NCBI GenBank assembly: GCA_029782355.1
Contig: JAKOUY010000016.1
Span: 434,001 to 498,000 of the forward strand
Source: Actinomycetes bacterium
Lineage (GTDB): Bacteria; Actinomycetota; Acidimicrobiia; Acidimicrobiales; Ilumatobacteraceae
DNA length: 64,000 nucleotides
Direction: 5' to 3'
The notes under the pieces were generated by a model, which worked only from the letters and a program-made list of their open reading frames with translations, was not told the DNA's origin and did not search any database. The stretch's first letter is position 1; each line of letters begins with the position of its first letter. Shown piece by piece: positions 8,607 through 28,561 of the stretch. The position numbers and the translations under genes are program-made.

Positions 8607-9460
8607 CCACCGTCGCCCCGGCTGGCGATCAGCCGCCGCCCACGCTGGCCGCCGCCGACGTGGCCCGGATCCGGTTGACGCCGTGGCGGGTGCTGCGCAG
8701 CGAGGCGCTCAAGCTGCGCACGGTGCGATCCAGCTGGTGGTCCATGGCCGTCGCGGTGGCCGCCATGGCCGGGATCGGCACGGTCATCTGCTGGTCGACG
8801 GGGCGCGACTGGGCGCATATCCGCCCGCGCCGGCAGATGCGGTTCAACCCGCTGTCGGACAGCCTCGGCGGGTACCTCTTGGCCCAGCTGGCCGTTGGTG
8901 TGCTGGGTGTGCTGGCGACCTCGGCCGAATACTCCACCGGCTCGATCCGCTCCTCGCTGGCGGCCGTTCCGAAACGGCTACCGGTGCTGTGGTCGAAGCT
9001 GGCCGTGGTGGTCACGGTGACCGCGGCGGCGATGATCCCCAGCGCCCTGTTCGCCTTCTTCGCCAGCCAGCGCATCCTCGCCGGCCATGCCGCCGCCGGC
9101 GTCCCCCATGTCGCCTGGTCGATGCCCACCGTGGCCCGCACGGTGATCGGGACCGCGCTCTACCTGATCGTCGTCGCCGTGCTCGGCGTGGCCCTCGGGG
9201 CGATCCTGCGCCACGTCGCCGGCGCCATCGCCGTGCTGGTGGGAGTCCTGCTGATCCTGCCGGCCATCGCCGAGCTGCTCCCCGACACCTGGGCCAACCG
9301 GATCAACAAGTACCTGCCCAGCAATGCCGGACAGGCATTGCTGTCCGTGGGCGGCGACAGCCAGACGATGACGCCGTGGCGTGGCTTCGCCCTGTTCTGC
9401 GGCTACGCCCTCGGCGCGGTGGCGGTCGCCGCCGTGCTGCTCCGCAGGCGCGACGCCTGA
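8603..9460 (+). CDS. ABC-2 type exporter, permease
   Basis: A 285-aa membrane protein with about six predicted transmembrane segments: SSWWSMAVAVAAMAGIGTVI, then LLAQLAVGVLGVLA with the ABC-2 hallmark SAEYSTGSIRSSLAAVP, VTVTAAAMIPSALFAFFA, YLIVVAVLGVALGAIL, AIAVLVGVLLILPAIAELL and GFALFCGYALGAVAVAAVLL. The GTG at 8603 overlaps the ATPase stop and removes a long non-homologous extension seen in this frame. It pairs with the upstream ATPase. Similar two-gene exporters move antibiotics, lipids or peptides. Confidence 0.85.
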   Translation: MTTVAPAGDQPPPTLAAADVARIRLTPWRVLRSEALKLRTVRSSWWSMAVAVAAMAGIGTVICWSTGRDWAHIRPRRQMRFNPLSDSLGGYLLAQLAVGVLGVLATSAEYSTGSIRSSLAAVPKRLPVLWSKLAVVVTVTAAAMIPSALFAFFASQRILAGHAAAGVPHVAWSMPTVARTVIGTALYLIVVAVLGVALGAILRHVAGAIAVLVGVLLILPAIAELLPDTWANRINKYLPSNAGQALLSVGGDSQTMTPWRGFALFCGYALGAVAVAAVLLRRRDA

Positions 9461-9517
9461 CCGGGCCCGCTCACCGTCTGGGTCGTCGTCGGCCGGGGCG
9501 CCGGTGACCCGGCCCGC

Positions 9518-10579
9518 TCAGCCGAGGTCGCCGGCCCGGCTCTCGTCCAGCATGGCGATCTCGCGGGCCTTGGCCCGGGCCTGTCGGTGGCGCAGCGCCC
9601 AGTGCGACGAGGCCACGGCGAGGACGAGGGCGGCGCCGTTGAACACCGGCTCGAACCACACCGGAGCCCCCATCTGCTGGAGGCCGGCGACGGCGATGGC
9701 CAGCGTGTACACGGCGATGATCGTGCCGAGCACGTTGAACCGGCCGGGCTGCACGGTGGTGGCGCCGAGGAACGCCCCGGCGAAGGCCGGCAGCAGCAAC
9801 GAACCGCCGGTCGAGGGCGAGGCGGTGCCCAGCCGTGAACCGAGGATGACCCCGGCGATGCCGGCCAGCACCGCCGAGGCGACGAACGCACCGACCACGT
9901 ACCGATGGGTGTTGATGCCGGTCAGCCGGGCGGCCCGCTCGTTGCCACCGGTGGCGTACATCCGCCGGCCGAGCGGGAGGAACCCGAGCACCACGGCAAG
10001 CACGACGGCCACGACGGCCACGATCAGCACGGCGTGGGGGATCCCGGCCCACCGGCCGCGGGCGATGTCGGTGAAGCTCGACGGGATCTTCCCGAGGATG
10101 CTCTTGCCCTTGGTGTACGCCAGGGCGATGCCGCCGATGACGCTGCTGGTCCCCAGTGTGGCCACGAAGGCGTCGACCTTCAGGCCGACGACGATCAGGC
10201 CGTTGACCAGGCCGGTCAGCGCGGCCGCGACCAGCGTGGCGGCGATGGCCAGCGCCGGCGACCAGCCCTGCTTGATGATCAGGCCGACGGCGAGGACGTG
10301 ACTGATCGACAGGACCGGGGCGACGGACAGGTCGAAGCGCCCGACGATGAGCGGGACCATCGCGGCGAACGCCAGCAGGACCACGATGGTCTGGTTGTCG
10401 AGGATCGAGCGGTAGTTGTCGAGCGTGGCGAACGTCTGGCGCTTGATCAGCGAGAAGGCCACGAGCAGGGCGAGCATGAACAGCAGCAGCCCGTACCGGC
10501 CGAGGATGCCGAACAGCCCGTCCCGTTCCCGGCGGGACTGGTCGACGCCCGGCTCGCTGGATGCTGCGTTACTCATCAT
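9518..10579 (-). CDS. Ribose-family ABC importer, permease
   Basis: A 353-aa permease of the RbsC/BPD_transp_2 family with about ten membrane spans. The family loop is seen as VGRFDLSVAPVLSIS (canonical form GGIDLSVG), and the conserved substrate-path segment as VDAFVATLGTSSVIGGIALAY. The GRRMYATGGNERAARLTGI coupling loop contacts the ATPase. It overlaps the ATPase gene by 11 bp and is last of a three-gene operon reading leftward from 13309. Family members carry ribose, xylose, autoinducer-2 and other small polar molecules. Context (shared regulator with acyl-CoA enzymes) suggests the cargo here may be a different organic acid or polyol. Confidence 0.88.
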   Translation of the reverse strand: MMSNAASSEPGVDQSRRERDGLFGILGRYGLLLFMLALLVAFSLIKRQTFATLDNYRSILDNQTIVVLLAFAAMVPLIVGRFDLSVAPVLSISHVLAVGLIIKQGWSPALAIAATLVAAALTGLVNGLIVVGLKVDAFVATLGTSSVIGGIALAYTKGKSILGKIPSSFTDIARGRWAGIPHAVLIVAVVAVVLAVVLGFLPLGRRMYATGGNERAARLTGINTHRYVVGAFVASAVLAGIAGVILGSRLGTASPSTGGSLLLPAFAGAFLGATTVQPGRFNVLGTIIAVYTLAIAVAGLQQMGAPVWFEPVFNGAALVLAVASSHWALRHRQARAKAREIAMLDESRAGDLG

Positions 10580-12092
10580 GTGTCTCCACTCCGTAGGCCG
10601 CGGACAGCAGCGCCGAGGTGGTGACCTCCGAGCCGCTCAGAACGCCGCGGATCCGACCGTGCTCCATGACGATGGCCCGGTCGCACACCTGCTCGATCTC
10701 CTCCAGATCCGAGCTGACCACGATCACCGCCTTGCCTGCCGAGGCGATCGAGCGGATCCGGGCATGGATCTCCGCTCGGGCCCCGATGTCCACCGCTGCC
10801 GTCGGTTCCTCGAGCACCAGCACCGCCGGGTGGCCCGACAGGCACCGGGCCAGCACCACCTTCTGGGCGTTGCCCCCGCTGAGCGTGGAGAACTCGGCAT
10901 TCGGCAGCGGTGGGCGGACGTCGAATCGGCGCAGCTGGGCCAGGGCGTCACGGGTCTCCCGCCCGCCGCGGATGGGCTCGGCCCACGGTTGTCGGGGATT
11001 CAGGTTGAGGTTCTCGCGCAGCGACATGGTGGGCACCGCTCCGGCCCCGTTGCGGTCCGCGGGCACCAGCGAGCAACCACGACGCACGGCGTGGCCCGGT
11101 GAGCGCGGCTCGAAGGGCGCCCCGTCGATCGTGATCGTCCCCCGGCGAACCGTCTCCAGCCCGAACAGGATCGGTGGGACGGCCGTGTGTCCGGCTCCGC
11201 GCAGCCCGGTGATGCCGAGCACCTCCCCCGCACGCGCTTCGAACGTCAGCGGGCCCACCGGTCCGGCGTAGACTCGGTCGACCACCACGACCGGCTCGCC
11301 GGCGCTCGTTGCCTCGGCGTGACGGGGCGGGAGATCGGCACCGATGATCATCCGCACCAGCTCGCGCTCGCTGACCTGGCGGGTCGCTGCCGTCCCGGCC
11401 ACCCGCCCGTCGCGCAGGACGGTGATCCGGTCGGTGATCGCCATCACCTCGTCGAGCCGGTGGGAGATGACGACGATGCCCACGCCGGCATCGCGCAGCC
11501 TCCGGAGGATGGCGAACAGGGTCTCCACCTCGTGGGCGCCGAGCGTGGCGGTGGGCTCGTCGAGCACCAGCAGTCGAACCTGCGTCACCAGGGCTCGGGC
11601 GATGGCGGTGACCGACTTGAGGGCGATCGGCAGGTTGCCGACCAGCGCGTCCGGGTCGAGGTCCTGGCCCATCTGGGCCAGCGCCTGGCGCGCTCGGCGG
11701 CGGGTGCCCGACCAGGAGATCAGTGGGCCGCGCCGCCCGTAGCCGGCTGCCAGGGCGATGTTCTCGGCCACCGACAAGCTGTCGATCAGCCCGAGGTTCT
11801 GATGGATGAAGCCCACCCCGCGAGCGGCGACGACGTCGGGCGAGAACCGCGGCGGCAACGTCTCGCCGAACAGGGTCAGCGTGCCGGCGTCGGCTGCTTC
11901 GATGCCGGCAAGCAGACGCACGAGCGTCGACTTGCCGGCACCGTTCTCACCGAGGAGACCATGGATCTCGCCGGCACGCATCTCCACGTCGATGTCGGCC
12001 AGGGCGACCGTCCCCCCGTAGACCTTGCGCAACCCCTGGGCGAGCAGGGCCGGCGGGTCGGTCTCGGTCGGTGCCGTCGTGACCGCGTCCAC
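10569..12092 (-). CDS. Ribose-family ABC importer, dual ATPase
   Basis: A 507-aa ATPase with two fused nucleotide-binding domains, as in RbsA/MglA. The first half has an intact Walker A (GLLGENGAGKSTLVRLLAG), Walker B (LLVLDEPTATL) and switch His (VISHRLDE). The second half has a degenerate P-loop region (GITGLRGAGHTAV), an intact signature LSGGNAQKVVLARCL and VLVLEEPTAAVDIGA, the usual asymmetry of this class. The GTG at 12092 sits 5 bp after the stop of the binding-protein gene and starts in the family N-terminus. It energises the permease encoded by the overlapping downstream gene. Confidence 0.88.
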   Translation of the reverse strand: MDAVTTAPTETDPPALLAQGLRKVYGGTVALADIDVEMRAGEIHGLLGENGAGKSTLVRLLAGIEAADAGTLTLFGETLPPRFSPDVVAARGVGFIHQNLGLIDSLSVAENIALAAGYGRRGPLISWSGTRRRARQALAQMGQDLDPDALVGNLPIALKSVTAIARALVTQVRLLVLDEPTATLGAHEVETLFAILRRLRDAGVGIVVISHRLDEVMAITDRITVLRDGRVAGTAATRQVSERELVRMIIGADLPPRHAEATSAGEPVVVVDRVYAGPVGPLTFEARAGEVLGITGLRGAGHTAVPPILFGLETVRRGTITIDGAPFEPRSPGHAVRRGCSLVPADRNGAGAVPTMSLRENLNLNPRQPWAEPIRGGRETRDALAQLRRFDVRPPLPNAEFSTLSGGNAQKVVLARCLSGHPAVLVLEEPTAAVDIGARAEIHARIRSIASAGKAVIVVSSDLEEIEQVCDRAIVMEHGRIRGVLSGSEVTTSALLSAAYGVETHDE

Positions 12093-12097
12093 CTCGC

Positions 12098-13309
12098 TCA
12101 GCTGGCGACGCCCCACAGCTTCAGGTACTGGGCCTTGTAGTCGAGGAACCCGGTGTACACCGGCTTGCCGTCGGCCGGGGTGTTGTCCTTGGTGAACAGG
12201 TGGACACCGATGCCGAGCTTGTCGGACGGGGTGAACCCGCTCTTGGTGATGCCGCGGATGGCCTCGTCGATGCTGGCGTAGGCGATCCACTCGAGCGACA
12301 CGCCGGCGTCGAAGGCCGCGGTCCCGGCGGCGATGGCTGCCAGGCCGACCTCGTCACCGTCCTTGGTCACGATCTTGACCTGATCGGACTTGCCGGCCTT
12401 GCGCACCGCCTCGATCACCGAGCTGAAGCCGATGGTGTACGGCATGACCAGGTAGTTGGCGTCCGGGTTGGACTGTAGGGCAGCCGTGATGGCGCTGTCG
12501 GCCTTGACCGGGTCGAGGGCGTCGGTGATCTGCCAGTCGACCTGCTTGACGGTGCACCCGGAGCACTTCGACATCACCTGCTGGAACTGCTTGTTGCTCT
12601 CCACCAGGTTGGGGAAGGCCGAGTCGTTGAACAGGATGACGTTGGCCTTGCCGCCGGTCTCGTTGATGATGTTGTAGGCGTTGATCTGGTGCATCAACGG
12701 CATCCGGTAGGACACGTAGGCGTCATAGGCGTCCGGGCCGGAGGCGTTCGGCGCGTCGGCCACCGAGATGGTGATGATGCCGGCGGCGCGGGCCTTCTGC
12801 AGGGAGGCGCCGACGACCAGATCGGGGACGGCCATGGTGATGATGGCGGCCGGCTTCTTGGCGATCGCCGTGTCGAAGGCCTGGGCGAAGCTCTCCGGCG
12901 TGCCGGCACCCTGGACGATGTCGGCCGTCCAGCCCGCAGCCTTGGCCGCCTCGGCGGCGTAGTTCGCCGCGGTCTCGCAGGCCGTGCCGGGTGCGCAGGT
13001 GATGATCTGGACGTTGACACCCGCCGGTGGCTTCGGCGTCGACGTCGGCCCGAGCCACGAGGTCTGGGCGACGATGTCCGTCGAGGCCACGTCGGAGTCG
13101 GTGGGGGCGTAGACCAGTCCGGCCTTGGCCAATTCGCTGATCCGCTTGGCCTCGGCGAGGATGTCCGTCGCCGCCGCGGCGGGGGTGGACGGTGGCGTGG
13201 TCGACGGGCGCGCCCCGCCGGCGGCGGCTGCCGCGGCCGACGGTACGAGGACCGCCACTCCGACCAGCGCCGTGAGGTGACGACCCCACTTGTGAGACGT
13301 GCGGACCAT
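12098..13309 (-). CDS. Periplasmic-type sugar-binding protein of the ABC importer
   Basis: A 403-aa exported binding protein of the type 1 (ribose/galactose) fold. An N-terminal hydrophobic segment (LTALVGVAVLVPSAAAAAAGG) acts as signal peptide or anchor, followed by a Thr/Pro-rich linker. The two lobes are recognisable by VNVQIITCAPGTACETAANY at the first strand, AIAKKPAAIITMAVPDLVVG, and VKIVTKDGDEVGLAAIAAG at the second-lobe switch. Four cysteines (CAPGTAC, CSGC) are unusual and may form disulfides. It heads the importer operon; its promoter contains the TetR operator at 13392-13408. Confidence 0.85.
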   Translation of the reverse strand: MVRTSHKWGRHLTALVGVAVLVPSAAAAAAGGARPSTTPPSTPAAAATDILAEAKRISELAKAGLVYAPTDSDVASTDIVAQTSWLGPTSTPKPPAGVNVQIITCAPGTACETAANYAAEAAKAAGWTADIVQGAGTPESFAQAFDTAIAKKPAAIITMAVPDLVVGASLQKARAAGIITISVADAPNASGPDAYDAYVSYRMPLMHQINAYNIINETGGKANVILFNDSAFPNLVESNKQFQQVMSKCSGCTVKQVDWQITDALDPVKADSAITAALQSNPDANYLVMPYTIGFSSVIEAVRKAGKSDQVKIVTKDGDEVGLAAIAAGTAAFDAGVSLEWIAYASIDEAIRGITKSGFTPSDKLGIGVHLFTKDNTPADGKPVYTGFLDYKAQYLKLWGVAS

Positions 13310-13388
13310 GACGACTTCCCCCCTTGCAGTCGGCGTAGGAACCCGCAGCGCGGGTCGTACGTGCTGGCCCCCTATGCCAGGCGGTGGT

Positions 13389-13418
13389 ACCCTAACGAAC
13401 GTTCGACCGGCCTGTCAA
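13389..13418 (-). promoter_or_regulatory. Importer promoter with TetR operator
   Basis: Read leftward, TTGACA (complement of 13413-13418) and TAGGGT (complement of 13389-13394) are separated by 18 bp. The spacer contains CGAACGTTCG (13396-13405), a perfect palindrome, and with its flank gives CTAACGAACG at 13392-13401. The same CTAACGAACG recurs in the promoter at 18428-18480. The site is 45 bp upstream of the divergent tetR start, so it probably also controls the regulator itself. Confidence 0.78.
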
Positions 13419-13452
13419 GGGCTGGGATGCCCGGTGGGATCGGGCGGATTGG

Positions 13453-14052
13453 ATGGGGGCCATGTTGACCAGCCGGCGCGAGGAGATCGTCCATGCCGCC
13501 ACCGAACTGTTCGCCCGTCAGGGGTATCACGCCGTCGGCATGCGCGCCATCGCCGACGCCGTGGGCATCCGCGGCTCGAGCCTCTACCACTACTTCCCGT
13601 CGAAGGTCGAGCTGTTGCACGCCATCGCCTCGGACTCCACCAAGCGGTTCATCGAGCTGCAGCTGGCCGACCTGCGGCCGATGCCCACCTACGCCGAGCG
13701 GTTGCGCAAGCTGCTGGGCGACCACGTCACCTACTTCCACGCCTACCGGTTGGAGGAGGCCGTCGGGCTGCGCGAGCTGCAGGAGCTGAAAGCCAGCGCG
13801 CCCGACTACTACGCCGAGCTGCAAGCGACCCGCCGCTCCTACCAGGACGCTGTGGAGCGGTTGATCCGCGACGGGTGCGCCGCTGGCGAGTTCGACTGCG
13901 CCGACGCCCACCTGGCCGCCCTGGCCATCCTCGGCATGGTCAACAGCGTCAACGACTGGTTCCGCGACACCGGGCGGCAGTCGATCGAAGCAGTCGCCGC
14001 GGCCTATGCGGCCATGGCGGTGGACGGCCTGCTCGGCGCCACGCCGCGCTGA
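13453..14052 (+). CDS. TetR-family transcriptional repressor
   Basis: A 199-aa regulator. Residues ~8-55 are a canonical TetR DNA-binding domain: REEIVHAATELFARQGYHAV, then AIADAVGIRGSSLYHYFPSK with the recognition helix. The C-terminal ligand domain contains FHAYRLEEAVGLRELQELK and NDWFRDTG, reminiscent of regulators of acyl-CoA metabolism (the FadR/KstR2/PaaR-like TetR group), which usually sense acyl-CoA esters. ATG 13462 is an alternative start. It lies between the two operons carrying its likely operator, divergent from the importer and convergent with the ligase end of the mutase operon. Confidence 0.88.
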   Translation: MGAMLTSRREEIVHAATELFARQGYHAVGMRAIADAVGIRGSSLYHYFPSKVELLHAIASDSTKRFIELQLADLRPMPTYAERLRKLLGDHVTYFHAYRLEEAVGLRELQELKASAPDYYAELQATRRSYQDAVERLIRDGCAAGEFDCADAHLAALAILGMVNSVNDWFRDTGRQSIEAVAAAYAAMAVDGLLGATPR

Positions 14053-14067
14053 CCGACGTCGGCAGGA

Positions 14068-15675
14068 CTACGCCGGCTTGGCCGCCGTGTTGGCCTGGCG
14101 GCGCAGCTCGCGCTTGAGCAGCTTGCCCTGCGAGTCCTTCGGCAGCGACTCGACGATGTTGACCACCTTGGGCACCTTGTACCCGGCGAGCTGTTCCTTG
14201 CAGAACGCCCGCAGGGCGTCCGGGTCGGCCGTCTGGCCCGGCCGGGCGACCACGAAGGCGGTGACCACCTGGCTCCAGTAGTCGTCGTCGACGCCGACGA
14301 CGGCCACCTCGAGCACGGTGGGGTGCTGGTACAGCACCCGCTCGACCTCCACCGAGGAGACGTTCATCCCACCCGTCTTGATCAGGTCCTTCTGGCGGTC
14401 CATGAAGTACAGGTTCCCGGCGTCGTCGATGCGGACGTTGTCGCCGGTGTGCAACCAGCCACCGCGCAGCACCTCGGCGGTCTTGTCCGGGTTCTTGTAG
14501 TAGCCGCGCATCACGCCGGGGGAGCGGCAGATCAACTCGCCCTCGGCGGCGTCGTTGCCGTCGGCGTCGACGACGCGCACCTCCAGCTGGGCGGTGGGCC
14601 GGCCGATCCACGACGGATCCTTGCCGGGCACGTCGTCGAGCGAGCGGAACCGGCCGATGGTCGGGGTCTGGGTCAGCTCGGATTGCGACCACAGGGTGAT
14701 CCACTCCAGGTCCGGGGCCACGGTGGCGAAGCCCTCGAACATCGCCCGCGGCATGGTCCCGCCGTAGGTGATCGCCCGGCGGATGCGCGACAGGTCGGTC
14801 TCGGCGAACCCGGCGGCCTGGATGACCTGGAGGTAGAACGTCGGCGTCTGCCCGACGACCGTGACCCCCTCGTCGACGAAGGCGGCCAGGGCCTTCACCG
14901 GATCGACGGCGAAGGGCAGCACGATGGTGTTGCCCAGCGTCAGCAGGCAGATCTGCATGCCCATCCCGGCGATGGTGTGGAACGGCATGGTGTAGTACCA
15001 GACGTCGTCCTCCACCAGGCCGATGCCGGTGGTGTACGACGGGATCATCGACACGAAGTAGTTGCGCTGCGGGATGGCCACGGCCTTCGGCAGCGCCTCG
15101 GTACCGCTGGTGTAGGGGATGATGCCGAGGGTCGACTCGTCGACGTCGACGTCGGGCTCGGCGGGATCGCCGTGCTCGACGAGCGAGCTGAGCCGCAGCC
15201 AGGCGGCCGGCGAGGTGTCGCCATAGGCGTCGTTGACCACCCGCACGCTGAGGTTCGGGAGCGGCTGGTCGAGCGCCTCGATCTTGGCGACGAAGGCGTC
15301 CTCGCAGACGATCGCCTTGGCCTCGGCGTGCTCCAGCTGATAGTGGATCTCCCGGGCGGTGAACGTGTAGTTGACGCCGGTGACCGCCGCACCGAGCTTG
15401 GCCGCGGCCCAGAAGGCGACCACCGACTCGGGGGAGTTGCGCCCCATGGTGGCCACCACGTCACCGACCCCGACCCCGTGCGCGGCCAGCGAGTTGGCCA
15501 GCCGGTTGACCTGGTCGTTGAGCTGGCGATAGGTCAGGACGCGCCGCTCGGCCGCCGGGCTGTGCAGGGCGACGATCGCCGCCCGGTCGGGGACCCGCGC
15601 CGCGTGGCGGCGCAGCTGATCGCCGAAGGTCGCCCGGCGGACCGGCTCGGCGATGGAGGTCGAGTGCTCGTTCAT
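14068..15675 (-). CDS. Acyl-CoA synthetase (AMP-forming ligase)
   Basis: A 535-aa member of the ANL adenylating family that activates a carboxylic acid as acyl-AMP and then acyl-CoA. The ATP loop is IIPYTSGTEALPKAVAI (a Glu replaces the usual third small residue), the A5 motif is around LWSQSELTQTP, A7 is GGWLHTGDNVR, A8 is YFMDRQKDLIKTGGMNVSSV, and A10 with the catalytic lysine is PKDSQGKLLKREL. It is the last gene of the operon starting at the nitroreductase gene, separated from the mutase small subunit by only a few bases. It probably prepares the substrate of that mutase. Confidence 0.88.
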   Translation of the reverse strand: MNEHSTSIAEPVRRATFGDQLRRHAARVPDRAAIVALHSPAAERRVLTYRQLNDQVNRLANSLAAHGVGVGDVVATMGRNSPESVVAFWAAAKLGAAVTGVNYTFTAREIHYQLEHAEAKAIVCEDAFVAKIEALDQPLPNLSVRVVNDAYGDTSPAAWLRLSSLVEHGDPAEPDVDVDESTLGIIPYTSGTEALPKAVAIPQRNYFVSMIPSYTTGIGLVEDDVWYYTMPFHTIAGMGMQICLLTLGNTIVLPFAVDPVKALAAFVDEGVTVVGQTPTFYLQVIQAAGFAETDLSRIRRAITYGGTMPRAMFEGFATVAPDLEWITLWSQSELTQTPTIGRFRSLDDVPGKDPSWIGRPTAQLEVRVVDADGNDAAEGELICRSPGVMRGYYKNPDKTAEVLRGGWLHTGDNVRIDDAGNLYFMDRQKDLIKTGGMNVSSVEVERVLYQHPTVLEVAVVGVDDDYWSQVVTAFVVARPGQTADPDALRAFCKEQLAGYKVPKVVNIVESLPKDSQGKLLKRELRRQANTAAKPA

Positions 15676-16067
15676 CCCTGCTCCTTGTCTGCGTCGGTCA
15701 GTCGCCTGGCACAGGCGACGATGTCCTCGAGGGCCGAGCCCGGCGGGAAGCAGGCCACGCCGCGCCCCTCGAGGTACTCGACCGCGTAGTGCGGCAGCGT
15801 CCCGCCGGCGAACACCGGGGTGTCCACGCCGGCGGCGTCGAGGGTGTCGAGGATCCGCCCGACCACCTCGACCCGCCCGCCGACGTTCAGCCCGATCAGG
15901 TCGACGTCCTCGTCGGCGGCGACCCGGGAGATGGCGTCGGCGGTGATCATCCCGGCCAGGATGACCTCGAATCCCCCGTCGCGCAGGGCCCGGGCGACGA
16001 CGTTGATCCCCCGCCAGTGACCGTCGAGGCTGGTCTTGGCCAGGAGCACTCGCGGAGCTGCGCCCAT
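15672..16067 (-). CDS. B12-binding small subunit of acyl-CoA mutase
   Basis: A 131-aa stand-alone cobalamin-binding domain. The base-off signature DxHxxG is present in KTSLDGHWRGINVVARALRD (D-G-H-W-R-G), followed by a Rossmann-like core (VDLIGLNVGGRVEVV) and the second motif VFAGGTLPHYAVEYL with the GG that packs on the nucleotide tail. The ATG overlaps the stop of the large-subunit gene by one base, so the subunits are coupled. A separate small subunit is the architecture of isobutyryl-CoA and 2-hydroxyisobutyryl-CoA mutases, in contrast to methylmalonyl-CoA mutase, where the B12 domain is fused to the large subunit. Confidence 0.85.
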   Translation of the reverse strand: MGAAPRVLLAKTSLDGHWRGINVVARALRDGGFEVILAGMITADAISRVAADEDVDLIGLNVGGRVEVVGRILDTLDAAGVDTPVFAGGTLPHYAVEYLEGRGVACFPPGSALEDIVACARRLTDADKEQG

Positions 16068-17716
16068 CAGAAGTGCACCGGGAACTTCCACGAGCCGAGC
16101 ACGGTGCGGAACACCTCGCCGACCTCGCCGACAGTGACGTCGGCGCCGACCGCGTCCATCACCGCGGCCATGACGTTGCCGCCCGACTGGCAGACCTGGG
16201 TGAGCTGGTCGATGGCCCTTGCCGCGGCCTCGCCGTCGCGCCGGGCGCGGTGCTGCTCCAGCCGGCGCATGCCCCGCTCCCAGGCGTCGATCGAGCCGCG
16301 GAACCCGTCGATGCCGAACGGATCGTGGTCGCTCTCGTGGACGTTGACGCCCACGATCTGGCGGGTGCCCTCGTTGATCATCCGCTCCAGGCGGAGCTGG
16401 TTCTCGGACGCGACGCGGTGCAGCATGCCGGATTCGAGGGCGGCGATGAACCCGCCCTCGGCCTCGATGTCGGCCAGGAAGGCGTAGGCCCGCTGCTCGA
16501 TCTCGGCGGTCAGCGCCTCGACGTAGTAGCTGCCGCCGAGGGGATCGACCACGGCCGTCAGGTTGGTCTCGTGCATCAGGATCTGCTGGGCGCGGATCGA
16601 CTGCTGGTGGGCCTGCTCGGAGGGCACCGAGAGGGCTTCGTCGTAGGCGGAGATGCCCATCGACTGCACGCCCGCCAGCACCGCCGACATCCCCATGATC
16701 GTGCCGCGCACGACGTTGTTGATCGGCTCCTGGTAGGTCATCGCCGAGCCGGCGGTGACGATGTGGATGCGCAGCCGCAGGGCCCGCTCGTCGGTGATGC
16801 CGTAGCGGGTTCGGAGGATGTCGTGCCACATGGTCCGGGCGGCGCGGATCTTGCAGATGTCCTCGAAGAAGTCCATCGCCATCCGGAAGCTGACCCCGCC
16901 GAGGGCGTAGGCCAGTTCCTCGATCGGCACCGTGCCGCGCCGGCGGACCTCGTCGAGATGGGCGATGTTGCAGGCCATCAGCGCCCCGAGCTCCTGGTAG
17001 GCGTTGAGCCCGCTGTCGGCGCCGTTGTACCCGGCCATCGAGATCGGCACCCAGTTGGGGACTCGCTCGTGGCAGAACTCGACGATGTCGCAGTTGATCT
17101 TCAGCGCCGCGGCCGGCGGGATCTGGTGCAGTGGCGGGCAGCCGATGTAGGTCAGGAAGAAGTCGGCCTGGCCGGTGCCGTTGAGCTGATCGAGGCGCAG
17201 GCCGCGGCGCAGGGCGACGTTCCAGTAGGCGGCCATGGCGAACGGCGCGTGTTGGGCCACCCCGCCGCCGGCGTGGGCGTAGTGGGCGGCCTGGTCGATG
17301 CCCTCGAGCGCCAGGGCGCAGTCCGCCGCCGACATGATCACCGCACCGGAGATGCCGACGTCTTCCCGGCGGGCGACCACCTCGGGGTGGTCGACGTCGT
17401 AGAGGTTGTCGGCCGTCATCCGGTCGTGCTCCATGATGAACCCGGTGCCGCCCTTGGCCAGCAGGTAGCGGATCCGCTCGGCTTCGTCCTCCGGGTTACC
17501 GAACCCGGAGAGCTGGAAGATGCGCCACGGCTTGGAGCGGTACCCGAGCCGGTGGGCCCCACGGGTGAACGGCGCCGCGCCCGGCGGGGCAGCGGTGCGC
17601 GCCGACTCGGGCACGTCCTGCGGGCCGTACGACGCCTGCAGGGGAATGCCCGAAACGGTCTCCCACGCCGGCTGGGTCGCCGCTGGCCCGCCACCGGCTG
17701 GCGGGCTGCTGGTCAC
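16067..17716 (-). CDS. Acyl-CoA mutase large subunit with atypical active site
   Basis: A 549-aa TIM-barrel subunit of the methylmalonyl-CoA mutase family. Family features: WETVSGIPL at the N-terminus, FTRGAHRLGY, YDVDHP, LNGTGQADFF, QELGALMACN, MTYQEPINNVVRGTI, DPLGGSYYVE and a C-terminal GIDGFRGSIDAW region. The substrate-determining positions differ from known classes: Leu69 where methylmalonyl mutases have Tyr, Glu96 where hydroxyisobutyryl mutases have Asp, Cys193 near the usual carboxylate-binding Arg, and Asn231 in GYN where the family has a catalytic GYH. The GTG start overlaps the nitroreductase stop (GTGA). Isomerisation of an uncommon acyl-CoA is likely; methylmalonyl-CoA is unlikely. 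Confidence 0.85.
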   Translation of the reverse strand: MTSSPPAGGGPAATQPAWETVSGIPLQASYGPQDVPESARTAAPPGAAPFTRGAHRLGYRSKPWRIFQLSGFGNPEDEAERIRYLLAKGGTGFIMEHDRMTADNLYDVDHPEVVARREDVGISGAVIMSAADCALALEGIDQAAHYAHAGGGVAQHAPFAMAAYWNVALRRGLRLDQLNGTGQADFFLTYIGCPPLHQIPPAAALKINCDIVEFCHERVPNWVPISMAGYNGADSGLNAYQELGALMACNIAHLDEVRRRGTVPIEELAYALGGVSFRMAMDFFEDICKIRAARTMWHDILRTRYGITDERALRLRIHIVTAGSAMTYQEPINNVVRGTIMGMSAVLAGVQSMGISAYDEALSVPSEQAHQQSIRAQQILMHETNLTAVVDPLGGSYYVEALTAEIEQRAYAFLADIEAEGGFIAALESGMLHRVASENQLRLERMINEGTRQIVGVNVHESDHDPFGIDGFRGSIDAWERGMRRLEQHRARRDGEAAARAIDQLTQVCQSGGNVMAAVMDAVGADVTVGEVGEVFRTVLGSWKFPVHF

Positions 17717-18396
17717 GTGGCGGCGAGTGGGCGGTCGAAGGAGTCGAGGAACGCCATCGACTCGACCGGCTTGCGGAACAGCTTGGTGGGGAACGGCTTG
17801 GCCGGGTAGCCGGCCACGATAAAGGCCGCCGTGGACAGGTTCGCCGGGATGTCGAACAGCTCCTTGATCTGCGGCTCGAACATGCACAGCAGCGTGGTGA
17901 AGGTGGTGGCCACCCCCTGGCCGCGCAGGGCCAGGCAGAAGTTCTGGGCGATGGTGTAGACGGACGCGCCGCCGACGATGCTCAGCCGGCCGAGGTCGGT
18001 GTCGGTCGGGTGGGTCTCCTCCAGGTCGGCCAGGACGATGACGATGGCCGGGTGGTCCTGGTAGTGGTCGGCGAAGTTGTCGGCGTCGGCCAACGACTTG
18101 ACCGGGTTGCTCATGGTGATGTGGGTGGCCTTGACGTCGCCGCTGTCGGCGATGATCTCGTCCTGGCCGGAGCTGGCTGCTTCGTAGTACGCCTTCCACG
18201 GGATCCGGTACCACTCGCCGAGCTGGTTCTTCTTGTCCTGATCGGTGACGATCAGGAACTGCACCGGCTGGCGGTTGCCGCCCTGCGGGCCGAACCGAGC
18301 CGCCTCGACGGCTTGGTAGAAGACCTGCTCCGGGACCGGGTCGGACTGGTAGTAGCGGCAGGCATGCTGCGTCCGCATTGCTTCGCTGAGTTCCAC
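17713..18396 (-). CDS. Nitroreductase-family flavoprotein
   Basis: About 227 aa, an FMN-dependent NAD(P)H oxidoreductase fold. The N-terminal phosphate-binding segment is EAMRTQHACRYYQSDPVP, with FGPQGGNRQPVQFLIVTD in the FMN site and a C-terminal AAFIVAGYPAKPF strand typical of the family. I prefer GTG 18396, which has a GGGGAG ribosome site 5 bp upstream, over GTG 18417. It is first in a four-gene overlapping operon with the mutase subunits and CoA ligase, so it may reduce an enone or double bond of an acyl intermediate. It lacks features I would expect of BluB. Confidence 0.82.
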   Translation of the reverse strand: MELSEAMRTQHACRYYQSDPVPEQVFYQAVEAARFGPQGGNRQPVQFLIVTDQDKKNQLGEWYRIPWKAYYEAASSGQDEIIADSGDVKATHITMSNPVKSLADADNFADHYQDHPAIVIVLADLEETHPTDTDLGRLSIVGGASVYTIAQNFCLALRGQGVATTFTTLLCMFEPQIKELFDIPANLSTAAFIVAGYPAKPFPTKLFRKPVESMAFLDSFDRPLAAT

Positions 18397-18427
18397 GTGG
18401 GCTCCCCAATCGGCCACACGACCGCCC

Positions 18428-18480
18428 CTAACGGTCGTTCGTTAGAAGGCATCCTATGACGACGCCTCCCACCCCGTCAA
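18428..18480 (-). promoter_or_regulatory. Promoter and TetR operator of the mutase operon
   Basis: Leftward -35 TTGACG (complement of 18475-18480) and -10 TAGGAT (complement of 18451-18456) are 18 bp apart. Just downstream, over the expected transcription start, lies CTAACGGTCGTTCGTTAG (18428-18445), with perfect CTAACG/CGTTAG arms. Its complement begins CTAACGAACG, identical to the operator at 13392. Architecture and spacing mirror the importer promoter, indicating co-repression by the TetR protein. Confidence 0.8.
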
Positions 18481-18532
18481 CGGGGCCCTGAACCGGGCGA
18501 CGAACGGACCCGACGCGGTCGAGACGCCGCAG

Positions 18533-18712
18533 TCACGGTCCGACCAGCTCGAACCGTCCACCGCCGATCGGGCGCAGCACATCGACGTACCGGCGGTCGA
18601 GCATGAGGATCGATCGGGTGTCGTCACGGTGGGCGAGAACGACCAGCGAGGCGTCGGCGACGCCGATTGCCTGGTCGCGAGAGCGCAGGACGACGTCGGC
18701 ACGACCTGCAGG
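18533..18712 (-). pseudogene. Remnant of a PIN-domain (VapC-like) toxin
   Basis: A 59-codon open segment, too short for a complete gene, encodes what looks like the C-terminal half of a PIN nuclease: IGVADASLVVLAHRDD with the metal-binding GVADA motif, then SILMLDRRYVDVLRP and a terminal GGGRFELVGP. An in-frame TGA at 18713-18715 closes it upstream, and I find no N-terminal PIN half or antitoxin in any frame nearby. The remaining sequence of 18540-18850 carries nothing else I can support. Confidence 0.6.
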
Positions 18713-18855
18713 TCATTCCCACTGGGTGACGCCAGTTGGTCGGGGGGATCGATCGTGTCGTGTGCGCTACGAACGTCCGGTACCTCCGGTGGCACCAGCT
18801 CGGTGGGCGATCGACGACGTGTCTCACCGGCTCATCGGCCGCGTGAGGTGGGTTC

Positions 18856-18893
18856 TTGACACGGCCGGTCCTATATATAACAGTTAGGTATAT
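18856..18893 (+). promoter_or_regulatory. Promoter/operator region of the padR operon
   Basis: TTGACA at 18856-18861 is followed by an AT-rich stretch with dyad symmetry (TAACAGTTA at 18878-18886 inside TATATAACAGTTAGGTATAT), 25 bp before the GTG start. AT-rich dyads like this are typical PadR-family autoregulatory sites. The exact -10 is unclear: TAACAG at 16-bp spacing is poor, TATAAC at 14-bp spacing is closer to consensus. Confidence 0.6.
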
Positions 18894-18917
18894 GCGATCG
18901 ACCGGCCCGGAGATCCC

Positions 18918-19460
18918 GTGAAGCACGTCGTCCTGGCGATGCTGGCCGACGGCCCGGCCCACGGGTACGAGCTGACCCGGCGATACGACGAGCTGTTCGC
19001 CAGCGTGTGGGGCCCGCTCAACGTCGGCCAGGTGTACGTGACCCTCGGGCGCCTGGAGCGCGACGGTCTGGTGGAGCACCACCGCCAGCGGCAGGCCAAA
19101 GGGGCCGACCGCAAGGTCTTCGAGCTGACCACGCTGGGCCGCAAGTACCTCGACGCCTGGTTGGAGGAGGACGCCGAGCTGCCGACGGCGAAGTCCGAGC
19201 TCGTCCTGCGCCTGGCCTCGGCGGACCTGATCGGCACTCCCGAGCCGCGCACCATCGTCGCCGCCCACCGCCAGCGCTGCCTCCAGGCCCTTCGGGTCCT
19301 CGACCGCCAGGCCGCCGAGCACCCCGTCGGCGGGTTCACCGAGCTGCTCGTCCAGGGAGCGGCGCTGCATCTCCAGGCCGAGCTGCGCTGGTTGGACCTG
19401 TGCGACCAACGACTGCGGGCCCGGCACCGCACGACCTCCCAGGAACGGAGTGACCGATGA
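18918..19460 (+). CDS. PadR-family transcriptional regulator
   Basis: A 180-aa regulator. Residues 1-80 are the PadR winged helix: VVLAMLADGPAHGYELTRRYDELF, then the GQVYVTLGRLERDGLV recognition helix and a wing ending FELTTLGRKYLDAWL. The ~100-residue helical C-terminus corresponds to the dimerisation domain of PadR subfamily 1. Its ATGA overlap with the downstream ABC ATPase gene makes this a three-gene unit of regulator, ATPase and permease, a common layout for drug-inducible efflux. An AT-rich dyad just upstream is the likely autoregulatory operator. Confidence 0.88.
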   Translation: MKHVVLAMLADGPAHGYELTRRYDELFASVWGPLNVGQVYVTLGRLERDGLVEHHRQRQAKGADRKVFELTTLGRKYLDAWLEEDAELPTAKSELVLRLASADLIGTPEPRTIVAAHRQRCLQALRVLDRQAAEHPVGGFTELLVQGAALHLQAELRWLDLCDQRLRARHRTTSQERSDR

Positions 19461-20218
19461 CCGTCGCCTGCCCCGCCGACCGTGGTCCCGTGCTGCGCGC
19501 TCGCGGTCTGGTCAAGCGCTTCCCGCCGGATGCCACCGTGCTGCGTGGCGTCGACCTCGACGTGGCTGCCGGCGAGTGGGTCGCCGTGATGGGGCCGTCC
19601 GGGTCGGGCAAGTCGACCCTGCTCCACCTCGTCGGTGGCCTGGAGACCCCGACGGCCGGCACCGTGCACCTCGTCGGCACGGCGATCGAGGGCCTGGGCG
19701 AGTCGGCCCGGGCCAGGCTGCGACGCCGAAGTGTGGGCGTGCTGTTCCAGGCCTACAACCTCGTGCCCCACCTGTCGGTGACCGACAACGTCGCCCTGCC
19801 CCTGCGTCTCGCCGGGCAGTCCCGCCGCCAGAGCCGAGCGCGAGCCGCCGAGCTGCTGGCCCGCCTCCACCTGAGCGAACTGGCCGGTGCGATGCCCGGC
19901 ACGCTGTCGGGTGGGCAGGCCCAGCGCGTCGCCCTGGCCCGGGCGATCGCGAACGACGTCCCGCTGCTGCTGGCCGACGAACCCACGGGGGCGCTGGACA
20001 CCGACGCGGCCCGTTCGGTGATCCAGCTGCTGCGTGAGGTGCACGCCGCCGGCACCGCCATCGTCATGGTCACCCACGACCACCGCGTCGCCTCGGTGGC
20101 CGACCGGGTGATGTTCATGCTGGACGGCGAGGTGGTCGACGAGCGGGTGCTGTCGGGCGAGGAGGACGACCCCTCGCGGACGACGTTTGCCCACCTGGTC
20201 CCGCTCGAGGCGTGGTGA
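19457..20218 (+). CDS. MacB/LolD-type ABC transporter ATPase
   Basis: A 253-aa ATPase with Walker A GPSGSGKSTLLHLVGGL, Q-loop FQAYNLVPHLSV, signature LSGGQAQRVALARAI, Walker B LLLADEPTGALD and switch VTHDHRVAS. The LSVTDNVALPL segment is typical of ATPases that partner FtsX-type permeases. It starts within the padR stop codon and ends overlapping the permease start. In Gram-positive bacteria such pairs act in mechanotransmission, peptide-antibiotic resistance or lipid handling without moving substrate through the membrane. Confidence 0.9.
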   Translation: MTVACPADRGPVLRARGLVKRFPPDATVLRGVDLDVAAGEWVAVMGPSGSGKSTLLHLVGGLETPTAGTVHLVGTAIEGLGESARARLRRRSVGVLFQAYNLVPHLSVTDNVALPLRLAGQSRRQSRARAAELLARLHLSELAGAMPGTLSGGQAQRVALARAIANDVPLLLADEPTGALDTDAARSVIQLLREVHAAGTAIVMVTHDHRVASVADRVMFMLDGEVVDERVLSGEEDDPSRTTFAHLVPLEAW

Positions 20219-22461
20219 GCGGCGTCGGCACCCTGACGGCCGCCGGACTGCGCCGGCGCCACCGAGGGTCGGCCGTGGTCTTCGTCGCCCTGTGCGCCGC
20301 CGCGGCCACCGCCGTGGTGGGCGGTCTGGGCGTGCTCGGCCTCGGCCCCCGAGCGGTGGACCGAGCCGCGGCCGCCGCCCACGTCTCCCACGTCACCGTG
20401 TCGGCCGAGCCCTCCGCCGTCGCCGCCATCCGCGCCGACGCCCGCCTGGTCGAGGTGGCCGGACCGTTCCCGGTCGTCGCCGCCGAGATCGACCGGCCGG
20501 ACGGGCCGATCTCGGTGCGCGTCGTCGCCCTCGACCGGGACGCGGCCGTGTCCCGGCCGCTGCTGCGCACCGGCCGCTGGCTGGCGGCCACCGACGAGGT
20601 GGTCCTCGAAGCCGGGCTCGGCGTGCGCCTGGGCGGAGGCACGCTGCGGCTGCGGGCCGGTGATCGGTCGTTGCCGGTGCGCGTCGTCGGTTCGGCCGTC
20701 GACCTCACCGACTGCGCCTATCCGCAGTGCTCGGCGCGCCTGTTCGCCTCGCCCGCCGCCGTGGCCGCGCTGGGTGGGACCCGGGTCGAGCTGCGCACCC
20801 GCGTGGCCTCGGCCGACCAGTCCGACCAGGTGGCGGCCGAGTTGCTGGGGCTGCCGGGCGTGCTGAGCACCGAGACGTGGCCGGACACTCGCCGTGACTA
20901 CCTGGCGATCGACTCGATCTTCGGTTCGTTCCTGGTGGCCCTGGGCGTGTTCCTCATGGTGCTGGTGGCCGTGGTGCTGACCGCATCAGCCGCCGCCGTG
21001 GTGATCAGCCGGCGCCGGGAGCTGGCCCTGCTGAAGGCTGCCGGCTCGACGCCGGGCGAGGTCACGCTGGCGGTGCTGGCCGAGCACCTGGTGCTGGGCG
21101 CCGGCGGCGTGGTGGTCGGCTGGGTCGCCGGCACGCTGCTCTCGACCCGCTTGACGGTCGGGGTCGGCCGGGTGCTGGCTCCCGGCACACCGGACTGGTC
21201 GCTCGGTCGGCTGGGCCTGTCCGCAACGATCGTCGGCGGTGCCCTGGTGATCGCCGGCTGGCTGCCGGCGTGGCGCGCCGGACGGACGGCCACGGCTGCC
21301 GTGCTCAGCGACGTGCCGAGTGGGCGTGGCGTCACGATCGCCGATCGAATCGGGCGCCGTCTCAACCTCGGTCCCGGCGCGTCCTACGCCGTGCACGACG
21401 CGTCGGCCCGTCCGAGCCAGAGCGTGCTGGCCGCGGCGACCCTACTGGTCGCCTTGGTCGGAGCGATCACGGCCACCGGGGTGATCAGCTCACTGCGCTC
21501 GGCCGCCAGCGATCCCCACCGCACCGGCGATCCGTGGGACGTGGTCGTCACTCGGGGCAGTGCCTCACCGAGGGCGGTCGAATCGGCCATCTCGGCGACG
21601 CCTGGCATCGCCGCCTGGTACACGCTGACCGACGACCGGGCGACGTTGCGCTCGATGACCTTCCGGGCCCGGGCCGTCGGCGGAGACCCACGCGCCGCCC
21701 GGTACCGGATCGGCGGCGGGCGCGCCGCGACGGCGGTGGGCGAGGCCACGGTCGGGTGGGGGTTCATGCAGCGCTTCGGCGTCCATGTCGGTGATCGCCT
21801 CGCCTTCGACGTCAGCGGCGGTCGAGCGCAGGTGACCGTCGTCGGCTGGCATCGCGACGTCACCGACTCCGGGGAGACGCTGCTGTGGCGCGATGAGCAG
21901 CGCCGCCAGCTGCAGCCCGGTGTCGACGCAGCGACATGGCGGATCGTCGTCACCGCCGGTGCCTCGGATCAGGACGTCCGCCGCAGCCTGGCGGATCGGC
22001 TGGGTGAGTCGGCCCGCGTCCAGACGTACCGGAACACGGTCGATCTCGGCCCGTTCATCGCCGCAATGGTGGTGCTGGTGCTGGTGGGGGCGGGCGTGTC
22101 CGGCCTGTACCTCGCCGTGGCCACGATCGGCAGGTGCCGGGAAGCCGCTCGGTCGATCGGCGTGCAACGGACGTTGGGGAGCACGACCGCCGATCTGGTC
22201 GGCCAGCACGCCCTGAGTGGTGCGCTGGTCGCCGTACCCGCCGCGCTGCTCGGTGTCCCGCTGGGCCTGCTGGTGATGGGCGCGGTCAGCGACGCGATCA
22301 CCGAAGACGCCGGCGCCGGACCGGGATTGATCGCCGCGCCGTCGTTGGTCACCACCGTGACCATCGGGGTGCTTGGGGTGGTGCTGGCGGCTGTGGCCGG
22401 AGGGGTGGGCGTGCTGGGCATCGCCCGCCGGACGACGGCCGAGCTGGTGCGCGGCGAGTGA
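20215..22461 (+). CDS. FtsX-family ABC transporter permease
   Basis: About 748 aa. An N-terminal membrane span (SAVVFVALCAAAATAVVGGLG) precedes a ~200-residue extracellular domain with two cysteines (DCAYPQC). Two FtsX modules follow, one at FLVALGVFLMVLVAVVLTAS with ISRRRELALLKAAGSTPGEV, and one at the C-terminus around MVVLVLVGAGVSGLYLAVA with EAARSIGVQRTLGST. A second extracellular domain lies between them. GTG 20215 gives a 4-bp overlap with the ATPase stop; GTG 20212 is one codon upstream. It forms the membrane partner of the upstream ATPase. Confidence 0.85.
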   Translation: MSGVGTLTAAGLRRRHRGSAVVFVALCAAAATAVVGGLGVLGLGPRAVDRAAAAAHVSHVTVSAEPSAVAAIRADARLVEVAGPFPVVAAEIDRPDGPISVRVVALDRDAAVSRPLLRTGRWLAATDEVVLEAGLGVRLGGGTLRLRAGDRSLPVRVVGSAVDLTDCAYPQCSARLFASPAAVAALGGTRVELRTRVASADQSDQVAAELLGLPGVLSTETWPDTRRDYLAIDSIFGSFLVALGVFLMVLVAVVLTASAAAVVISRRRELALLKAAGSTPGEVTLAVLAEHLVLGAGGVVVGWVAGTLLSTRLTVGVGRVLAPGTPDWSLGRLGLSATIVGGALVIAGWLPAWRAGRTATAAVLSDVPSGRGVTIADRIGRRLNLGPGASYAVHDASARPSQSVLAAATLLVALVGAITATGVISSLRSAASDPHRTGDPWDVVVTRGSASPRAVESAISATPGIAAWYTLTDDRATLRSMTFRARAVGGDPRAARYRIGGGRAATAVGEATVGWGFMQRFGVHVGDRLAFDVSGGRAQVTVVGWHRDVTDSGETLLWRDEQRRQLQPGVDAATWRIVVTAGASDQDVRRSLADRLGESARVQTYRNTVDLGPFIAAMVVLVLVGAGVSGLYLAVATIGRCREAARSIGVQRTLGSTTADLVGQHALSGALVAVPAALLGVPLGLLVMGAVSDAITEDAGAGPGLIAAPSLVTTVTIGVLGVVLAAVAGGVGVLGIARRTTAELVRGE

Positions 22462-28400: not shown

Positions 28401-28561
28401 TGAACACCTGGCGGATGACCCACGAGTCCTGCATGTACTGCCCGTTCGACCGGCTGTGCCCGACCAGCCGCGGGGCGGACGCCGAACGCCTGGCCGGCGA
28501 TCCGGCGGTGGCCGTTCGACGCAGGCTGCGCCCGCCCGAGGAGGTCGACCAGGATGGCTGA
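25445..28561 (+). CDS. AddB-like nuclease subunit with iron-sulfur cysteines
   Basis: A 1038-aa protein. The N-terminal half is an inactivated UvrD-like helicase: at the P-loop position it reads VTVIVASNLAGLAARHTLAG, with no GxGKT. The C-terminal half is a RecB-type PD-(D/E)XK nuclease, with the Asp of GLIDRVDRT and the D-Y-K of YALYDYKTGSG. Four cysteines, one in EEWAQCGFRYFLH (~730) and three in ESCMYCPFDRLC (~1000), form the Fe-S staple known from AddB. It overlaps the helicase gene by 8 bp and works with it in double-strand-break end resection. Confidence 0.85.
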   Translation: MVRVIERVDVVGYGRPATSALSDAIDRAQEGRPLAPVTVIVASNLAGLAARHTLAGGSVGGRRGLVNVTFVTVLRLAQLLTLDTPRERPPLTNPVLGSAVRRALRADPRPFAGVAQHVATETAVAATYAELSRLSPAARAAVAAEPSGALAVSLFERVHDHLGSYDDEDAVARAAATDAVLRRNAASLGHVVWYLPDQLSPAQTGLVAAVLSQAPSTVVVGLTGAADADEGVRRLCAAVGVEVGPLALVEVPTAQHLVSVADPEQEVIEALRGAVSLIDRGVVPERIGIFYPTADPYVRLIEQRTTAADIPASGPSAERLVDSVGARVLLAAMSLPGQQWRRDRVMALFASAPLRPGGQPARPAAWERVSRQAGVLAGLGDWRRKLTGFAAHATEVARQGEQTRHRLAAEDARQADDLLGAVRTVAEAVHEVGRARTWATKSAAAVDLLGALLGTDRSHLDWPVVERDDLDRVVDALTRLAVLDALEPNPGNEVFRRALEAELDVARARRVAYGKGLLYAPLSTAPGQDLDAVFVVGMTEGQCPAPRRDDALVPDAARAAAAGELATAADELRAQHRAVLAALAAAPAGSRTMTVPRGDLRSGRHVLPSRWLLDSASALAGRRVYSTEFAALGSPVVDVVPSFAAGLLRGPWPSQEDDDLGSASRHVTAGGDVLHHPAAAGSAGAIAVQRHRRSGAFTAFNGNLSGQRVPSPADGQSVHAPTALEEWAQCGFRYFLHRLLGLAEVDEPERLITASPIDRGSALHEVLERFIGEASASGTLPLAHEPWSAEARQRLHDLADEVFAELEGSGRSGRTVLWAMAKESMHAVLDTFLSTDDQWRAAEGAVPTEVELGFGLAGSSDSPVEITLSDQRTLRFRGLIDRVDRTARGYALYDYKTGSGRKFERLDRDPLLGGTALQLGVYAEAVRRRFGDQPVDVRYWLLEPAQGEHLRGYPSDAPFRARFDEVLRAITDGIGDGVFASEPGQLNTWRMTHESCMYCPFDRLCPTSRGADAERLAGDPAVAVRRRLRPPEEVDQDG

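Follow-up and report, generated by a model that had tools for sequence, protein, structure and literature searches.

The window analysed here is a stretch of 64,000 nucleotides (positions 434001–498000 of contig JAKOUY010000016.1, assembly GCA_029782355.1) from the genome of an actinobacterium of the family Ilumatobacteraceae in the class Acidimicrobiia, which comprises 3.79 Mb in 40 contigs. Between positions 9518 and 18480 it carries an operon for an ABC importer, an operon for a B12-dependent acyl-CoA mutase and, between the two, a gene for a TetR regulator that is the candidate switch for both. The features are the following (loci in other genomes are given by our own L numbers):

9518–10579, minus strand: permease of the importer (BPD_transp_2, CUT2 type; Pfam PF02653, 114.6 bits)
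10569–12092, minus strand: ATPase of the importer with double ABC domain, RbsA/YtfR type (Pfam ABC_tran in two stretches; GTG start)
12098–13309, minus strand: binding protein (Peripla_BP_4; Pfam PF13407, 81 bits), extended at the N-terminus and with a pocket that is probably not for sugar
13389–13418, minus strand: importer promoter, TTGACA-18-TAGGGT (exact string; matching layout in L005)
13392–13409, no strand assigned: operator 1, in the spacer of the importer promoter, between importer and tetR (palindrome scan)
13453–14052, plus strand: TetR regulator (Pfam TetR_N and TetR_C_24; five orthologs with 41–68% identity)
14068–15675, minus strand: AMP-forming acyl-CoA ligase (Pfam AMP-binding, 232 bits)
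15672–16067, minus strand: B12-binding small subunit of the mutase, motif DGHWRG (Pfam B12-binding, 66.6 bits; TIGR00640 above cut-off)
16067–17716, minus strand: large subunit of the mutase, of a divergent clade with Asn at the His244 position (PF01642, 453 bits; alignment and tree)
17713–18396, minus strand: nitroreductase-fold flavoprotein, first gene of the mutase operon (PF00881, 67 bits)
18428–18445, no strand assigned: operator 2, just downstream of the -10 of the mutase-operon promoter (palindrome scan; counterparts before the nitroreductase gene in L005, L006, L008, L009 and L012)
18451–18480, minus strand: mutase-operon promoter, TTGACG-18-TAGGAT (exact string and scan; similar layout in L005 and L006)

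The importer operon (minus strand, 13309–9518) is read in the order binding protein, double ATPase, permease, which is the composition of a CUT2 importer; the best NCBIfam models of its ATPase are sugar-importer ATPases, with scores below cut-off. The mutase operon (minus strand, 18396–14068) is read in the order nitroreductase, large subunit, small subunit, ligase, and successive genes overlap by 4, 1 and 4 bp (the GTG start of the nitroreductase gene was chosen by likeness to L005). The PF01642 domain together with the DxHxxG B12 motif places the mutase in the methylmalonyl-CoA mutase superfamily, and the TetR_N DNA-binding domain together with palindromic sites near the gene marks the regulator as a TetR repressor.

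Promoters and a shared operator

A preliminary description of this DNA had placed a promoter before each operon, a sequence shared by both and a TetR gene in between. All of these are present, both promoters as exact strings, and the span 18428–18480 given there for the mutase-operon promoter contains the promoter and operator 2 together, the operator starting 5 bp after the -10. A scan of 9500–18600 for promoter-like sequences gave one match, the mutase-operon promoter (mean of shuffles 0.4); the importer promoter, the -10 of which agrees with the consensus in 3 of 6 positions, was not recovered by this consensus scan. A cobalamin riboswitch was not found at the Rfam gathering score in 9000–20000.

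The shared sequence CTAACGAACG occurs exactly twice in the window, and as a 10-mer with one mismatch it is equalled in 33 of 100 shuffles. That it is a chance repeat was considered and rejected: the 10-mer alone is non-significant, but the 18-bp palindrome of which it is a part is significant both in the window and in the genome. The full palindrome CTAACGAACGTTCGTTAG, idealised from the two window sites, has at up to 3 mismatches two matches in the window versus none in 100 shuffles, and the whole 3.79-Mb genome holds only these two sites (reversed-pattern control: 0). Both operators are imperfect palindromes, operator 1 with 3 and operator 2 with 2 mismatches to the ideal.

The search for the operator in related genomes covered 27 loci and the window, plus seven further loci, with L013 and L108 left out; some of the numbers denote the same contig (L072 = L008, L054 = L007, L035 = L012, L014 = L005). 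Twenty first-order resampled windows gave 11 matches at 13/18 or better and 2 at 14/18 or better, so only matches of at least 15/18 were counted as evidence. Such matches are present in the window (two), L005 (two), L006 (two), L008/L072, L009 and L012, and these are exactly the scanned loci with a TetR ortholog; the remaining scanned clade loci have no match even at 13/18 or better, and the locus from Methylibium included for reference has one at 13. Operator, TetR ortholog and mutase operon thus recur together in five genomes beyond the host, and the operator is found in 6/6 genomes with a TetR ortholog. When these six genomes were scanned in full, 9 of 10 sites with up to 3 mismatches lay at this system; six comparison genomes, whose TetR status was judged at the locus and not genome-wide, held 4 sites, none of them at the mutase, and the reversed pattern gave 7 sites over all 12 genomes. 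The importer-side 18-mer is identical in the window, L005 and L006. The layout of the window has an 18-bp spacer, with the operator inside this spacer at the importer and just past the -10 in the mutase operon; of the two other loci on which the pattern was run, L005 repeats it on both sides and L006 on the mutase side. The L006 contig ends approximately 0.5 kb past the TetR-side operator, so that an importer there could not be seen; elsewhere this contig carries a distant importer (31–34%). With an operator that is unique in the host genome, follows the TetR ortholog and is absent from scanned mutase loci without it, the comparison of sequences supports the two-operon TetR regulon of the preliminary description.

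The mutase clade and the nitroreductase

The closest solved structure to the large subunit is that of 2-hydroxyisobutyryl-CoA mutase (4r3u). Assignment by best match to an ordinary methylmalonyl-CoA or 2-hydroxyisobutyryl-CoA mutase was overturned by the residue and tree tests. In the numbering that we take from methylmalonyl-CoA mutase, with the roles presumed there for Arg87, Tyr89, Arg207 and His244 (the last presumably catalytic), all 27 aligned clade members have Leu instead of Tyr89, Phe instead of Arg87 and Asn instead of His244, and also Arg in place of Thr85. Near position 207 there is a clade-wide insertion of one residue with Gly-Cys, the exact pairing of which to Arg207 (a position likewise assumed) is uncertain.

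The tree was built from 24 clade members and 12 references; near-duplicate or short sequences (L038, L040, L043, L046, L048, L051, L052) and fragments (L013, L077, L108) were left out. The references were the Methylibium enzyme, which we take to be a 2-hydroxyisobutyryl-CoA mutase, ScpA from Escherichia coli and from a Rhizobium, the three other mutases of the host, two archaeal enzymes and four more. Only the two ScpA proteins among them are annotated as methylmalonyl-CoA mutase and none as isobutyryl- or ethylmalonyl-CoA mutase; one long reference branch (the host's own L004) and three references of odd composition were flagged. The tree sets the clade apart with a support of 100/100 on a branch of 2.3 changes per site. 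Arg87 and His244 are kept in 12/12 references, and position 89, which is Leu in the clade, is taken in them by Tyr, Phe, Ile or Val. The supposed mark of isobutyryl-CoA mutase, Phe at the Tyr89 position, is thus also missing from the clade, in a tree without an annotated isobutyryl-CoA mutase. The residues Ile90 and Asp117, to which we ascribe roles in 2-hydroxyisobutyryl-CoA mutase, are replaced in the window by Leu and Glu. At the Asp117 position the clade has Glu in 16/24 and Lys in 8/24 members, the Lys type forming one sub-clade (98/92). One member (L011) comes from a metagenome-assembled genome named Gammaproteobacteria. The B12 motif DGHWRG of the small subunit is present in 31/33 clade stretches, the other two being contigs of less than 5 kb; in 9/12 reference stretches the motif reads DGHDRG.

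The mutase is therefore not a plain methylmalonyl-CoA or 2-hydroxyisobutyryl-CoA mutase, and the clade, which the preliminary description had overlooked, is apparently uncharacterised. Judged by titles and the beginnings of abstracts, no paper describing either the clade or the operator is among those listed from the open-licence text of PubMed Central (in one search 15 of 287 matches). The retained B12 motif argues for a working B12 enzyme with another chemistry or another substrate, and by analogy with Asp117 of 2-hydroxyisobutyryl-CoA mutase the Glu may hold a hydroxyl group of the substrate. We lean towards the view that this clade defines a new class of B12-dependent acyl-CoA mutases, in which Asn takes the place of the catalytic His, the pocket is rebuilt, the Glu and Lys types have different substrates and the carbon-skeleton rearrangement is an undescribed one; the window would then hold a Glu type in a regulon dedicated to import and catabolism.

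It could be argued that we are dealing with the known 2-hydroxyisobutyrate route in a variant form, in which ligase and mutase convert 2-hydroxyisobutyryl-CoA, or a closely similar 2-hydroxy-2-alkyl-acyl-CoA, to a 3-hydroxyacyl-CoA and back. The closest solved structure points in this direction, as do the parts of the Methylibium locus (small subunit, ligase, meaB and large subunit), presumably that of a 2-hydroxyisobutyrate route, and the combination of an aliphatic residue at position 89 with an acidic one at the Asp117 position (Leu and Glu in the window, Ile and Asp in Methylibium). We nevertheless regard this variant as improbable, since the window mutase lies outside the Methylibium group, has undergone the exchanges His244 to Asn, Arg87 to Phe and Thr85 to Arg besides the insertion near 207, and has as neighbours an importer and a nitroreductase, neither of which is found in the 13-feature Methylibium stretch. 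The invariant Asn at the catalytic position could also mean that the protein no longer catalyses and acts as a scaffold or regulator. The chance of this appears very small in view of the conserved B12 motif, of a gene for the chaperone MeaB in three operons (after the ligase gene in L005–L007) and of the fact that the replacing residues are themselves invariant. The host has meaB elsewhere in its genome (one above cut-off), and the lack of this gene in the window operon is therefore no obstacle.

For the nitroreductase-fold protein the best NCBIfam model is BluB (TIGR02476), with 46.7 bits versus a cut-off of 150. The top Foldseek matches of its predicted model (pLDDT 79) are only generic flavoproteins, namely the C-terminal domain of FbiB, BluB and iodotyrosine deiodinase, with query-normalised TM scores of 0.54–0.59. 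A second nitroreductase–ligase pair (47% and 52% to those of the window) is found in L006:3197–8353 together with an iron alcohol dehydrogenase and another ligase, adjoining another TetR gene. If the nitroreductase synthesised the lower B12 ligand in the manner of BluB, the operon would link the supply of cofactor with the mutase, and a cofactor precursor would be the cargo of the importer. This would fit with BluB being the best model and reaching Foldseek rank 12 (2isj), with a cobT-type gene (PF02277) after the ligase in L039 and with the absence of a BluB above cut-off from the host genome. It is most doubtful all the same: the score falls far below the cut-off, FbiB chains rank above BluB with iodotyrosine deiodinase close, and the second nitroreductase of L006 has the ligase and the iron alcohol dehydrogenase for company and no mutase directly beside it.

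The importer and its partnership with the mutase

In the preliminary description the importer was called ribose- or sugar-type. The fold and the composition agree with this, the binding protein being predicted to fold like ribose-binding protein (model pLDDT 82, top Z 28.5); most sugar-contact positions differ, and the label is possibly misleading. At 12 positions that we take to be ligand contacts in RbsB, the six mutase-linked binding proteins keep only Asp215 in 6/6 and Phe164 in 4/6 (two alignment modes) and have other residues in common. When aligned likewise, AlsB and YtfQ keep Asp89, Arg141, Asn190 and Asp215. It should be noted that identity to RbsB is low and that there is an Asp one alignment column away from Asp89, which makes single positions uncertain. 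Taken together, the seeming loss of most ribose-contact residues makes a simple sugar an unlikely cargo. Four Cys are invariant in the seven binding proteins aligned.

Co-occurrence was assessed in samples of 395 genomes of the class, 397 of the order and 396 of the phylum, which overlap and include the host, with cut-offs of E <= 1e-120 for the mutase clade and E <= 1e-30 for the binding protein. The mutase clade is present in 18/395, 10/397 and 3/396 genomes, respectively (two of the last three already counted). Orthologs of the binding protein occur in 3/395 class genomes, all three of which also carry the mutase, and in 8/397 order genomes, seven of which do. Nominal Fisher probabilities are 8e-5 (class), 3e-12 (order) and 5e-7 (by genus), and these overstate the case because the genomes are related and the samples overlap. 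The importer stands beside tetR in the window and L005, within the operon between nitroreductase and mutase in L007, and divergently at a distance of approximately 3.3 kb in L073 and L075; near the mutase of two loci cut by contig ends, a binding protein with ATPase (L074) or a binding protein (L108) can be seen. The pair is retained in four genera and in three arrangements. The preliminary description would have fallen had importer and mutase never occurred together, and the partnership which it suspected proves to be real.

Genes next to the mutase in other genomes give weak hints at a substrate. In genus g419 (L073 and L075), genes for a GMC oxidoreductase and an NDMA-type alcohol dehydrogenase follow in the importer operon. 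The first genes of the mutase operon there encode an unmatched protein, a luciferase-like oxidoreductase and a deacylase of the AstE/AspA type, a set which recurs in part near the clade members L036–L041 and L043. The unmatched protein (L073:12096–12776 and relatives) has about 226 amino acids and no Pfam or NCBIfam match, and is found in several lineages near the mutase with the luciferase-like oxidoreductase and often the deacylase. In L039 an M20 amidohydrolase above the NCBIfam cut-off is encoded immediately upstream of the mutase. The formation of an acid by oxidation of an alcohol or by hydrolysis of an amide conjugate would fit these neighbours, although this is conjecture; in the genomes with Xsc the conjugate would be one of taurine. 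Xsc (sulfoacetaldehyde acetyltransferase) and an aminotransferase are encoded next to the mutase in L047, L048 and L050–L052 (791 bits in L047, cut-off 676; the others are 93–98% identical). In these five loci (e.g., L050:9204–18593) the genes downstream of a Lys-type mutase, all on its strand, encode Xsc, a class III aminotransferase, a CoA ligase and an F420-type oxidoreductase, with a thiolase in L047 and L050, and a link of B12 mutases to the breakdown of organosulfonates is possible there. For the window, sulfonate degradation was rejected, no Xsc above cut-off being present in the host genome, and we do not extend the sister clade's link with Xsc to the window mutase. None of the additional neighbours described here is present in the window. 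Beside its mutase operon lie apparently unrelated genes (18918–22461), first for a PadR regulator and then for an ABC ATPase and an FtsX-type permease. Further on (25445–31985), two large proteins encoded side by side contain PD-(D/E)XK nuclease and UvrD helicase domains, and we liken them to an AddAB-type pair.

The proposed regulon and known systems

We propose that the two operons form a TetR regulon for the uptake and catabolism of one small compound by import, CoA activation and B12-dependent rearrangement, a reading to which we give a probability of about three in four. TetR would sit on both 18-bp palindromes and, to judge by their position, repress the importer and the mutase operon; bound within the importer-promoter spacer, it may control its own gene as well. 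The importer would take up a polar, probably non-sugar compound, which directly or after oxidation or hydrolysis would give a carboxylic acid; the compound would be a small acid, probably branched and oxygenated, or its precursor. The ligase, by its family, would form the CoA thioester, the mutase would rearrange the carbon skeleton and ordinary acyl-CoA degradation would take over, with the nitroreductase-fold flavoenzyme acting somewhere on the same route. An acyl-CoA of the route would probably release TetR, as suggested by the regulators that it resembles. Gene order, the operators, their conservation, the clade, its residue replacements and the co-occurrence are seen in the sequences themselves; from these we infer repression, catabolic direction, an acyl-CoA effector, the substrate class and the role of the nitroreductase. 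An importer and a mutase with an unusual active site under one switch protein point to an undescribed breakdown route.

Several observations speak against this reading. One genome (G884; 88% complete, 640 contigs) has the binding protein without a detected mutase, and 17 of 24 mutase-bearing class and order genomes lack the importer at the cut-off (7/24 have the binding protein), so that the importer is not required for the mutase reaction itself. Most clade loci show no nitroreductase in the flanks that were fetched, the pattern used detected no -35/-10 pair on the TetR side of L006, the operator of L012 lies approximately 0.26 kb before the called start of the nitroreductase, and none of the fetched neighbours fixes the substrate. 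That importer and mutase operon are mere neighbours, with a regulator common to both by chance or hitchhiking, could be read from the many mutase genomes without importer, but is scarcely credible given the operator common to both operons and the retention of the pair across genera and arrangements.

To our knowledge, B12-dependent acyl-CoA mutases have been found to catalyse only a few reactions in nature. Each known substrate pairs with a small set of active-site residues, and a clade in which this set is replaced, including the His regarded as catalytic, offers a direct test of how mutase chemistry is steered. The regulon supplies an importer, a ligase and a regulator as partners, and the substrate can therefore be sought by ligand screening rather than guessed.

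Among known systems, the 2-hydroxyisobutyryl-CoA mutase operon of Methylibium and Aquincola is similar in having split large and small subunits and a CoA ligase and meaB in one operon (the Methylibium record names the mutase only 'methylmalonyl-CoA mutase family protein'). The window mutase differs in lying outside its group and in its active-site residues, and the window adds nitroreductase, importer and TetR. With methylmalonyl-CoA mutase and other known acyl-CoA mutases it shares the Pfam family and the B12-binding partner, whereas Arg87 and His244 of the references have become Phe and Asn. The regulator resembles the TetR proteins SACE_7040, FadR, FasR and KstR, which provide its best NCBIfam models, and has the TetR_C_24 domain, but it remains below all curated cut-offs and its regulon has two sites. 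Like ribose-type CUT2 importers, the importer consists of one permease, one double ATPase and one Peripla_BP_4 protein with the fold of ribose-binding protein; unlike them, it has a binding protein in which most ribose-contact positions are replaced and four Cys are invariant.

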